From IMG/VR virus record IMGVR_UViG_3300025853_000850, positions 1 through 20,523 of that record: a DNA stretch of 20,523 nt. One strand, given 5' to 3'. A program made the position numbers and the translations under genes. Each line of letters begins with the position of its first letter. Within the stretch, counting starts at the first letter, position 1. Below are positions 2,890 to 7,824 of the stretch, one piece after another. This stretch comes from a virus. Under the pieces are notes generated by a model. The model was not told where the DNA came from, did no database searches, and worked only from the letters and a program-made list of their open reading frames with translations.

Positions 2890-3548
2890 CAGCTTGGTCT
2901 TACAGTAAAGTTAATACCTTTAAGCAGTGCCCTAAGAAGTATTACCATCTTAACGTCAAGAAAGACGTAAAAGACCGAGGTAGCCCTGCTACTGTATACG
3001 GTAATAAAGTACATAAAGCGGCTGAAAAATATATAAAAGACGGCAAGCCTTTAGAAAAAGAATATGGCTTCTTACGAAAAACACTGGATGCTTTTAACCG
3101 GATAGAAGGTGAGAAGCACTGCGAGATTAGGCTTGGTGTAGCCAAAGAAGATGATGAATTTAAGCCGACGAAATTTATGGCTCCTGATGTTTGGTACCGA
3201 GGTATAGCTGACCTACTTATAGTCAACGGAGAGAAAGCTTATCTGATTGACTACAAGACTAGTAAGACCGCGAACTATGCGGACACTAAACAGTTGGACT
3301 TACTTGCAGGTGCTGTATTTATAAACTTCCCTGAAGTTAAGAAGATTAAATCTGCATTGTCATTTGTTATATGTGATGGCTTCGTAACTAAAGAGCATAC
3401 CGCAGACATGTATAAGTCCTACATTGGTGTGTTTGATGAAATACTTGAGCGTATTGAAGTAGCAGGTAATGAAGGTGTTTGGAATCCAGTAGACGGCCCC
3501 TTATGTGGGTTTTGTCCAGTTATTAGCTGCGAACATAATAGGAAATGA
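2886..3548 (+). CDS. Cas4/RecB-like PD-(D/E)XK nuclease with iron-sulphur-type cysteines, 220 aa
   Basis: Predicted DNA exonuclease. It opens with SKVNTFKQCPKKYY (residues 7-20), the usual N-terminal signature of Cas4/AddB-type nucleases carrying the first Cys (Cys15). Then come His44 (KVHKAAEKYI), Asp109 (GIADLL), the IDYKT core (121-125, Asp122 and Lys124), and Gln136. Cys207, Cys210 and Cys215 lie near the C-terminus (LCGFCPVISC). One N-terminal plus three C-terminal Cys is the 4Fe-4S arrangement of Cas4 and AddB. No CRISPR array or other cas gene is present, so this is a phage replication or recombination nuclease, not a CRISPR component. It starts in an ATGA overlap with the SNase gene. 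Confidence 0.92.
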   Translation: MTAWSYSKVNTFKQCPKKYYHLNVKKDVKDRGSPATVYGNKVHKAAEKYIKDGKPLEKEYGFLRKTLDAFNRIEGEKHCEIRLGVAKEDDEFKPTKFMAPDVWYRGIADLLIVNGEKAYLIDYKTSKTANYADTKQLDLLAGAVFINFPEVKKIKSALSFVICDGFVTKEHTADMYKSYIGVFDEILERIEVAGNEGVWNPVDGPLCGFCPVISCEHNRK

Positions 3549-3549
3549 T

Positions 3550-4266
3550 ATGCGTATAGTCTGTGCACCACAACAAGTAAATCTTTTTGACGAAGATATT
3601 AGAAGAGATGCCCCACGCTGTAATGTAGTGTGGTGGACTGATGATAAAGACCATAATGAGTGGCATATCTATAACAGTATGAGGACATATCTTAATAAAC
3701 CTTTGTTAGATACGTTAAAAAATTTTGGTTCTCCGCAATATTCAGAGATAAATTTACACCTACTAAAAGATTTGTATCGTGCACTGCTCCGCGAAGAACC
3801 TACAAAAGGATTCACTGACAGGTTAAAAAAGTGTGGTAGGCATATAGAGTATTGGCAGTGGGACATTTTTGAGCAGATAAGATGGCGTGCTAGTAAAGGT
3901 GTACGTCCTAAAGTAGCATTAGAAGATATGCTTAAACTTCACTATCGTAGAATAGAACGTGAAGATGTTTATGAAAGATGGGATAGCCAAGAAATAAAAC
4001 AAGAATGGCGTGAAGTAAGAATGCAAGTGTTAGAGGCATATAAAGCACAATGTGCTATATGCAACCGTACCCCGCAACAACACGGAGTGGTGGTACATGT
4101 AGATCACATAATACCTAAATCACACAAACCGAATCTGGCCTTGTGCTTTTCTAATTTGCAAGTGCTTTGTGAAGATTGCAACATGGGCAAGGGTAATAAA
4201 TTTGACACAGATTGGCGTCCTGTAGTGACTAACCACATATCAGTACATAAGCATCTGCAATACTGA
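3550..4266 (+). CDS. HNH endonuclease, 238 aa
   Basis: The C-terminal ~75 residues are a standard HNH domain with two zinc-knuckle pairs: CAIC (168-171), HVDHIIPKS (183-191), NLQVLC (202-207), CEDCN (207-211) and GKGNK. The N-terminal ~155 residues match no domain I recognise; they are charged and partly helical. I chose ATG 3550 because it follows the nuclease stop by one base and has AGGAA about six bases upstream; an in-frame ATG at 3505 lies within the previous gene. The gene looks more A+T-rich than the polymerase. It may be a free-standing homing-type enzyme or part of the nuclease cassette. No intron or interrupted gene is visible beside it, which argues mildly against a homing intron. 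Confidence 0.9.
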   Translation: MRIVCAPQQVNLFDEDIRRDAPRCNVVWWTDDKDHNEWHIYNSMRTYLNKPLLDTLKNFGSPQYSEINLHLLKDLYRALLREEPTKGFTDRLKKCGRHIEYWQWDIFEQIRWRASKGVRPKVALEDMLKLHYRRIEREDVYERWDSQEIKQEWREVRMQVLEAYKAQCAICNRTPQQHGVVVHVDHIIPKSHKPNLALCFSNLQVLCEDCNMGKGNKFDTDWRPVVTNHISVHKHLQY

Positions 4267-4277: not shown

Positions 4278-4568
4278 ATGCCAACCAAGAAACGTAACTA
4301 CAAGAAAGAATACGAGAACTACCAAGGCACAGAGGATCAGAAAAAGAAACGTGCTAAACGCAACGCTGCTCGACGTAAGGCAATGCGCGAAGGCAAAGTT
4401 AAAAAAGGTGACGGTAAGGATGTAGCCCACAAGAAAGCCTTAGATAAAGGCGGAAAGAACTCTGACGGTACTAAAGTAGAGAGTAAATCACGGAACCGAT
4501 CCTTCAAACGGGACTCTAAAGGTAATCTAGTGTCTGAAACCAGTAAAAGAGAGCGAAAGAAAAAGTGA
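4278..4568 (+). CDS. Highly basic small protein with degenerate HNH-like core, 96 aa
   Basis: About a third of the residues are Lys or Arg, so it should bind nucleic acid. Residues 41-79 (GDGKDVAHKKALDKGG, then NS and RNRSFKR) resemble the beta-beta-alpha core of HNH proteins: His51, Asn61 and Asn73 sit where H, N and H/N are expected. However, the Asp usually before the first His is Ala50, and there are no zinc Cys. It may be a catalytically dead or minimal HNH protein, or a DNA-packing protein. Related-looking basic proteins are frequent in phages and usually unnamed. It has a near-perfect ribosome binding site and its stop overlaps the GTG start of the helicase gene. Confidence 0.75.
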   Translation: MPTKKRNYKKEYENYQGTEDQKKKRAKRNAARRKAMREGKVKKGDGKDVAHKKALDKGGKNSDGTKVESKSRNRSFKRDSKGNLVSETSKRERKKK

Positions 4569-6139: not shown

Positions 6140-6166
6140 ACTTGTCCCGATTGAAAAGGAGTAGTG
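6136..6166 (+). promoter_or_regulatory. Inverted repeat enclosing the ribosome binding site of the 129-aa gene
   Basis: CACTACT (6136-6142) is perfectly complementary to AGTAGTG (6160-6166), with a 17-base loop. The right arm abuts ATG 6167 and takes in the last two bases of AAGGAG (6156-6161), so folding would hide the translation start. The left arm overlaps the -10 box and lies upstream of the predicted transcription start (~6146). Only transcripts read through from upstream genes could therefore form this hairpin. Confidence 0.45.
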
Positions 6167-6556
6167 ATGAACGCAACAGACAAGGCAGATAAACTAACGG
6201 CTGTGTATCTCAGTATGAGAGACGCCATTAGAGAAAAAGAAGAAGAGATAAAAGAAATAAAAGTACAACAAGATAAAGTAGCTAAGAAACTTGATTCTTT
6301 TTTTGGTGAAAAAGGTGAGTCTCTTAAATTAGCATCCGGCACTGTATCTCGAAGGTTACAGACTACATTTCAGATAAGTAACTGGGACGAGATGCACATC
6401 TTTATAAAAGAGAACGATGCTATGCACCTGCTTGAGAAGCGAGTGCACAGTACAAACATGAAGGAATTTCTGGAAGCTAACCCAGATGTAGTACCACCAA
6501 GCCTTCAGGTTATACGAAAAAACATTATCTCTGTTCGTAAACCCTCTAAAAAATGA
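6167..6556 (+). CDS. Conserved-looking phage protein of unknown function, 129 aa
   Basis: The first ~45 residues form a charged predicted coiled coil (MNATDKADKLTAVYLSMRD, then a Glu/Lys/Gln-rich helix). The C-terminal half carries ISNWDEMHIFIKENDAMHLL, EKRVHSTNMKEFLEANPD and a final ISVRKPSKK. This layout is familiar from unnamed proteins that sit beside SSB genes in many tailed phages. I cannot name a function; a nuclease-inhibitor or SSB-partner role is only a guess. ATG 6167 is preferred over GTG 6164 because AAGGAG lies five bases before it and only two before the GTG. The gene is first after the promoter and its end overlaps the next start by four bases (ATGA). Confidence 0.8.
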   Translation: MNATDKADKLTAVYLSMRDAIREKEEEIKEIKVQQDKVAKKLDSFFGEKGESLKLASGTVSRRLQTTFQISNWDEMHIFIKENDAMHLLEKRVHSTNMKEFLEANPDVVPPSLQVIRKNIISVRKPSKK

Positions 6557-7824
6557 ACCGACTTCGGGTAAAGGATGGGTGTTTCATACACCCTGATACT
6601 TACGAGCCTCTGCGCTCTATAGAAGTTGTAATTACAGATAGAGGAGTATTATCAAGAAACTATTACAAGGACGACAACCTTGTTTGTTGGTCTGTAGGGT
6701 GCGACTTTCCGCACGAAGATGTAGCTAACAAACAAGCACCCAGATGCTTAGATTGCGACCAAAGCATAAAAGTAGGATGGGGAACAGCGGGAGCGCCTTG
6801 TAAATACTTTACTTTAATTAAGGTAGCGTTTCTTGATTCTAAGTATCTTCATGAAATTAGGCTTGGAGCTTTAAGTTTATTTTCAAAAGAAGATAACAGG
6901 ATGAGCCTTTATAAATATGAGGATCATCTAAAGCGTAACCGAGAGGAAATCGGTAACGTGTTAACTGAAATATATTTTGTAGAACATGGAAATACCTACA
7001 AAATGTTATTCAAACCAGTTCGACCTTTAACAGAGGAAGAACTAGAAAATATACAGCAGCTTGAAGAAGCTGTACAACCAACCCCTTTTACGGAGCAGCA
7101 CATGGCTAGTAAGAAATTTAAATCGCATGTTATACGTGGAGTAACTGCAATGTATCCACGCATCAATCAGCCCTACCACTGGAGCGAATCACAAAACAAA
7201 AGTGTTCCTTGTGGTGCTACACAAGATGGAGCCGCTTACGAGATGAGCTTCACAATGAACAAAGATCAGGCAGCGGAACTGTATGCTTTGATGAAAGAAG
7301 CATATATGGAAGGACGTGAAAAATCTTGGCCGGAAGAATTTCCTAAAGCTAAAAAGATTTTTAACAAGCAAGAAGACGGCACTTATCTAGCTAAGACTAG
7401 TATAAAAGCCCAGTACAACGGTAAGTTAACTAACCCACCCAAGCAGTACGACTCACAAGAAAAATTACTTGGTGAAGACTTCATGCTCACTACTGGTAGT
7501 ACAGTAAACATAGCCGTTGATTTTTTCCCACACAAAATGAACGGCGGTAATGTGGCACTCTGGCTACGAATGGTGCAGGTAATTAAGTATGTGCCATACG
7601 AAGCACCTTCTCCGTTTGGTAAAGAAGAAGGTTTTAGTGTGGACGATGGAGCTGCCACTCCTTTTGGTGTTGATAACTCAGGTGATGGGTTTGAAGCTGA
7701 TGATGACAACGATGACGATGATGTTGAAGAAGTCAAAACGCCTTCTAAGCGTAAAAACCAAAAGCCTCAAGCCGACGATGACGATGACGACATCGAAGAC
7801 CTTATTTCAGACTGGAGTAAATAA
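6553..7824 (+). CDS. Two-part protein: Cys-rich phage domain fused to T7 gp2.5-like single-strand DNA-binding protein, 423 aa
   Basis: Residues 1-~175 form one module: Cys50-x14-Cys65-x2-Cys68-x14-Cys83 looks like a metal site, followed by a mixed alpha/beta region ending in FKPVRPLTEEELE. In my recollection this is usually a separate phage protein of unknown role. Residues 184-423 look like a complete phage SSB: MASKKFKSHVIRGVTAMYPR, an OB-fold-like body with YLAKTSIKAQYNG and MNGGNVALWLRMVQVI, then SPFGKEEGF and a long Asp/Glu tail (379-420) ending DLISDWSK. Acidic tails of this kind dock polymerase and helicase in gp2.5-type SSBs. The frame has no break, so the fusion is real at DNA level, but an internal start at 7102 could also give a free SSB. 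It overlaps the previous gene by four bases. Confidence 0.85.
   Translation: MNRLRVKDGCFIHPDTYEPLRSIEVVITDRGVLSRNYYKDDNLVCWSVGCDFPHEDVANKQAPRCLDCDQSIKVGWGTAGAPCKYFTLIKVAFLDSKYLHEIRLGALSLFSKEDNRMSLYKYEDHLKRNREEIGNVLTEIYFVEHGNTYKMLFKPVRPLTEEELENIQQLEEAVQPTPFTEQHMASKKFKSHVIRGVTAMYPRINQPYHWSESQNKSVPCGATQDGAAYEMSFTMNKDQAAELYALMKEAYMEGREKSWPEEFPKAKKIFNKQEDGTYLAKTSIKAQYNGKLTNPPKQYDSQEKLLGEDFMLTTGSTVNIAVDFFPHKMNGGNVALWLRMVQVIKYVPYEAPSPFGKEEGFSVDDGAATPFGVDNSGDGFEADDDNDDDDVEEVKTPSKRKNQKPQADDDDDDIEDLISDWSK
7092..7104 (+). promoter_or_regulatory. Possible internal ribosome binding site and start for a free SSB
   Basis: GGAG at 7092-7095 lies six bases before an in-frame ATG (7102-7104, Met184 of the fusion). 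The sequence from this Met reads like the natural N-terminus of a stand-alone phage SSB. Initiation here would give a 240-aa SSB alongside the 423-aa form. Confidence 0.45.

Follow-up and report, generated by a model that had tools for sequence, protein, structure and literature searches.

A conserved gene of marine bacterial viruses with two probable products, a fused and a free gp2.5-like SSB

In this study, we describe a gene that is real and conserved in marine bacterial viruses and that is, as judged from comparative sequence evidence, probably dual-product. It lies on the + strand of the window, which is the whole 20,523-nucleotide stretch of DNA analysed here (IMG/VR record IMGVR_UViG_3300025853_000850), and joins a Cys-rich module to a complete T7 gp2.5-like SSB, with a further ATG at the start of the SSB. 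The dual product is supported because this ATG is invariant among fused relatives, a Shine-Dalgarno (SD) sequence precedes it in most lineages and the SSB gene of relatives with separate genes starts at the same place. The SSB genes of phages are generally regarded as giving one product each. No description of a two-form gp2.5-type SSB was found in the literature searched, the coverage of which was incomplete.

Results

The frame at 6553-7824 (+ strand) was open over 423 codons with no internal stop, and the initial annotation, which had read it as running unbroken from a Cys-rich module into an SSB, was confirmed on this point. In this single gene the module has no stop codon of its own, so any translated module is fused to the SSB. 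The features of the locus are listed below with the evidence used for each.

6164..6556, + strand: upstream ORF of 130 aa, stop overlapping the fusion start (ORF; syntenic in relatives)
6553..6556, + strand: ATGA overlap of fusion start and upstream stop (RTGA in 39/39 representatives)
6553..7824, + strand: fusion gene, 423 aa, ~48 kDa (ORF and translation)
6553..7032, + strand: N-terminal module, residues 1-160, predicted OB fold, phrog_27714 family (AlphaFold2, hhalign, structure comparison)
6685..6801, + strand: Cys loop with invariant C45, C65, C68 and C83, putative zinc site (alignment)
7033..7101, + strand: linker of residues 161-183, differing in length and sequence between relatives (alignment of relatives)
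7092..7095, + strand: Shine-Dalgarno-like GGAG, six bases upstream of the internal ATG (sequence, SD energies)
7102..7104, + strand: internal ATG coding for Met184, kept in all 82 distinct fused relatives (alignments)
7102..7824, + strand: gp2.5-like SSB, 240 aa, ~27 kDa if begun at the internal ATG (phrog_112, 1je5, fold)
7609..7635, + strand: SPFxxxEGF motif (also ends separate-gene module proteins)
7693..7821, + strand: acidic SSB tail, predicted disordered, with a conserved Trp near the end (alignments, AlphaFold2)

Relatives of the module were collected by scans of IMG/VR, the last of which gave 580 encoding stretches, with 80 loci kept from these. Module and SSB shared one open frame in 185 records among 223 loci, many of these records being overlapping stretches of the same contigs, and the gene order common to the relatives was SNF2 helicase, 130-aa ORF, fusion, HTH and primase. 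The comparison of separate with fused genes proposed in the initial annotation revealed both states: separate adjacent module and SSB genes were present at the same locus in 30 locus records, from a search begun with the SSB. Their SSB ATG was located −14 to +22 nt from the module stop, mostly with an SD of its own, and the separate SSB begins where the internal ATG lies in the fused genes. One relative (L063) carried the SSB alone at this locus (SD −9.2), and no module was found in its 17.8 kb contig. In the maximum-likelihood module tree the fused form made one clade (SH-aLRT 100), and in the SSB tree the fused rows together with L063 made one clade (SH-aLRT 97), neither tree being independently rooted. 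Separate genes are probably ancestral, because the more distant homologues from cultured phages are stand-alone. In each of nine long fused records, which are possibly incomplete, a single gp2.5-type SSB gene was present and a bacterial-type SSB was absent, so that free SSB, if made in them, would come from an internal start or from proteolysis.

The initial annotation had placed GGAG six bases upstream of an in-frame ATG at 7102, exactly at the natural SSB N-terminus; the GGAG is present as described and the ATG aligned with the start of stand-alone SSB homologues. Met occurred at the SSB start in all of the 82 distinct fused proteins examined (51 + 31), at codon offsets of 180 to 192 because the linker varies. 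Of the 39 representatives, 29 had an SD energy of −5.4 kcal/mol or better at the internal ATG, a strength reached by only 7.7% of other in-frame ATGs and by 10% of all codon positions. Three deep fused lineages (L104, L105, L155, L159, L161, L162, L164, L185, L220 and L221) kept the internal ATG with a weak SD (−2.5 to −3.3); initiation in them may depend on a different signal, or the yield of free SSB may be lower. Linker synonymous change was low in these weak-SD lineages, as measured in the L104/L105/L161/L164 and L185/L221 pairs. Over the relatives, the lowest synonymous change was in the five codons before the internal ATG (0.17 per site versus 0.25-0.54 in the other bins, shared descent being ignored), and Glu was encoded by GAG in 33 of 49 codons there versus 421 of 1351 elsewhere, counts that likewise ignore shared descent. 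A dual start of the T7 gene 4A/4B type is marked by an internal ATG that is in frame, has an SD to itself and is kept in relatives, and such an ATG was found here.

When the window gene was recoded synonymously, its SD strength was expected in ~3% of recodings (p 0.03), so it is the relatives that carry the argument beyond chance. Over these, SD-like codons were fairly likely given the amino acids (median p 0.22), which favors the explanation that only the fusion protein is made and that the internal ATG and GGAG are relics of a separate SSB gene or by-products of a Glu/Lys-rich linker; the weak SDs of the three deep lineages point the same way. However, the ATG is kept in 82/82 proteins though the length and sequence of the linker vary, synonymous change is reduced at the site, and a relic would be expected to decay unevenly over such divergence, and we therefore regard a fusion-only gene as unlikely. 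Proteolysis within the linker, which is of low confidence in the AlphaFold2 model and probably flexible, could release free SSB with no internal start, but it would leave the invariant ATG and the SD in 29/39 representatives unexplained and is quite improbable. A sequencing or assembly artefact, against which the initial annotation had proposed a check, was refuted by the relatives and has almost no probability left, for the in-frame fusion recurs with an identical open junction in many independent contigs, down to 41-48% identity, and the one frameshifted relative (L040) has its shift within the SSB. That frameshift (L040 2541-2918) is probably a sequencing error, because the near-identical L041 is intact.

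RNA structure was also considered for the internal start. In 34 of 35 cases the internal site was less structured than the gene average, and the window's own site was no more open than that average; accessibility was dropped as evidence, since amino-acid content explains it in synonymous shuffles (median p 0.41).

We consider it likely that the gene is a dual-product replication gene, giving a fusion by translational coupling and a free SSB from the internal site. The suggestion of the initial annotation that one gene makes both forms is thus probable on comparative evidence (ATG, SD and separate genes), with both products still predicted.

The fusion start at 6553 has no SD (median SD over the representatives, −0.1). 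In each of the 39 representatives the start codon, ATG or GTG, shares bases with the upstream stop in the form RTGA ([A/G]TGA), an overlap that is the usual signature of stop-restart coupling, and translation of the 130-aa ORF may drive that of the fusion in this way. The 6164-6556 ORF matched phrog_13900 ('minor head protein') despite its position in a replication operon; it also had weak matches to Mu Gam and DUF7307, so the head label may be wrong. Further upstream, an HNH endonuclease ORF (3505-4266) is located between a Cas4-like exonuclease and the ORF 4278-4568. In L010 the exonuclease is separated by 6 bases from the counterpart of the latter ORF, which suggests that the HNH gene is a mobile insertion.

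Residues 184-423 matched the gp2.5-like SSB family phrog_112 (E 1.6e-15), and the family profile matched the T7 gp2.5 structure 1je5 in the PDB (E 3.9e-8). In the AlphaFold2 model of the whole protein, the SSB half matched 1je5 (T7 gp2.5, Z 14.9) and 5odl (Enc34 SSB, Z 14.1). The C-terminus reads DDDDDDIEDLISDWSK, and the acidic tail is kept in relatives. Having the sequence match, the gp2.5-type OB fold (AlphaFold2) and the acidic C-terminal tail of that family, this half is a gp2.5-like SSB by sequence and predicted fold, with ssDNA binding predicted, and the whole gp2.5-like SSB of the initial annotation was upheld. The SPFxxxEGF motif lies within the SSB and also at the C-termini of the separate module proteins in L180-L223, and NPF alone is retained in many fused linkers; SPFxxxEGF is possibly a shared docking motif. 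That module and SSB are tandem duplicates was rejected, as hhalign gave no similarity between them (E 0.14, 10 columns).

Four cysteines of the module, C45, C65, C68 and C83, were invariant in a 14-sequence alignment of fused, separate and cultured-phage homologues. The initial annotation had named C50, C65, C68 and C83 in a Cys-rich module of ~175 residues; the module is present, with ~160 residues here, and the last three cysteines are conserved, whereas C50 is not and the fourth conserved cysteine is C45. Two AlphaFold2 models of the module gave an OB-like barrel with the Cys loop, of low confidence in both, between the third and fourth long strands. Its structural neighbours were phiC31 gp3 (Z 8.6 over 137 residues, the best), the OB folds of BRCA2 (Z 7.8) and, with the reservation that the modelled Cys loop is of low confidence, the core of RB69 gp32 (Z 7.1 over 141 residues). 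Because these Z scores are moderate and hhalign found no sequence link to gp3 or gp32, we claim only a fold resembling the gp3, gp32 and BRCA2 OB folds. The module family gave no alignment with T4 gp32 in hhalign, a single-sequence comparison of limited power, and the module gave no match with phiC31 gp3. The Pfam Gp3-like domain (PF18897) was detected in phiC31 gp3 and not in the module or its homologues. Membership of the gp32 or phiC31 gp3 families was set aside, as hhalign gave no sequence support.

No match for the module was found in Pfam or NCBIfam, and PDB sequence searches with it returned chance matches only. The matches obtained were to phrog_27714, a family with no annotation: weak for the window module (E 4.4e-4), E 1e-32 for a separate-gene homologue, and E 8.6e-6 for the module against Pseudomonas phage KPP25 ORF069 (phrog_27714) in hhalign. 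The members of phrog_27714 share the four cysteines of the module, which belongs with this family by sequence.

In the cultured phages Rollin, Xp15, Effie, RHph_TM3_14A and KPP25, the module family is stand-alone and located in the replication region, and the first four have an SNF2-type helicase nearby. A tblastn search of cultured phages with the window module itself as query gave nothing convincing, whereas a separate-gene homologue as query did find these relatives; one weak match to an Amylibacter assembly was obtained in a search of genome contigs. Several of the cultured-phage homologues end in a long low-complexity tail, the tip of which is acidic or contains Trp. The long proteins of Rollin and RHph_TM3_14A were rejected as further fusions, their C-terminal halves being low-complexity tails and not SSBs. 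No match to phrog_112 or PF00436 (gp2.5-type and bacterial SSB) was found in the five genomes, while the same phrog_112 search recovered the SSB of the window as a control; for the two SSB types covered, this agrees with the idea that the module family is an SSB. PF10991 gave no match in the five phages nor in any control, so its absence is uninformative.

The models point to a second, SSB-like OB-fold domain in the Cys-rich module and not to a mere tether. It is probably zinc-binding, it may itself be an SSB that binds ssDNA, and the phrog_27714 family can likely be assigned to an SSB-like OB fold. More tentatively, phrog_27714 could be an unrecognised SSB family with a zinc-bearing OB, fused in these marine phages before an unrelated gp2.5-type SSB, and one gene would then give an RPA-like two-OB and a one-OB SSB in a ratio set translationally. 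The module might instead lack ssDNA binding and serve as a docking adaptor that brings the SSB to another protein, comparable to the action of phiC31 gp3 on integrase. Although gp3 is the top structural match, the gp32 and BRCA2 OB folds match as well, and the five cultured phages have the family with no gp2.5-type or bacterial-type SSB detected, which fits an SSB role; we find a docking adaptor rather doubtful. The role at the replication fork hinted at in the initial annotation is plausible for the module in unspecific terms.

Discussion

We infer that both forms are translated. Ribosomes finishing the upstream ORF would restart at the ATGA (6553) and give some of the 423-aa fusion, made up of the Cys-rich, probably zinc-binding OB module and the gp2.5-like SSB, while other ribosomes would enter at the internal SD/ATG (7092-7104) and give the free 240-aa SSB. 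The free SSB would probably be the more abundant form and coat ssDNA, and the fusion the minor one. The fusion would add a second, different OB domain to part of the SSB coat and likely alter the footprint, the affinity or the partners recruited at forks and ends. By analogy with T7 gene 4, these phages may need a coat in which one-OB and two-OB SSB are mixed.

If true, this would be an SSB that occurs naturally in two forms and has living relatives with separate genes, with the fusion and with the SSB alone, so that what the fusion is for can be tested. The analysis also indicates which fold and role an unannotated phage protein family is likely to have. In addition, phiC31 gp3, a protein in wide use as a recombination tool, might possibly derive from an SSB-like replication protein.

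Among known systems, T7 gp2.5 and the Enc34 SSB are like the SSB half in fold (Z 14.9 and 14.1) and acidic tail; unlike the fusion, they are stand-alone and have no N-terminal module. The phrog_27714 proteins of cultured phages (KPP25 ORF069 and others) are sequence homologues of the module with the same four cysteines, but they are stand-alone and unannotated, with no gp2.5-type SSB fused. T4/RB69 gp32 may resemble the module in its OB core and in a loop that contains Cys (Z 7.1 over 141 residues for the RB69 core); it has no sequence similarity to it, and a Z so low may mean merely a common arrangement. The recombination directionality factor phiC31 gp3 is the top structural match of the module (Z 8.6, 137 residues), but it shares no sequence similarity and its known function is integrase control. 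In phiC31 (L231 1821-9001), gp3 is located in a replication block between exonuclease and primase/polymerase genes. T7 gene 4 gives the 63 and 56 kDa primase-helicase forms 4A and 4B from one frame, and unwinding is better coupled to synthesis by a mixture of the two than by the long form on its own (PMC12593628). It encodes a primase-helicase whereas the window gene encodes an SSB, for which the two products are predicted from sequence alone. T7 gene 4 resembles the window gene in its single frame, in an internal start that has a separate ribosome-binding site, and in a Cys/zinc module at the N-terminus of the long form only (PMC12593628).
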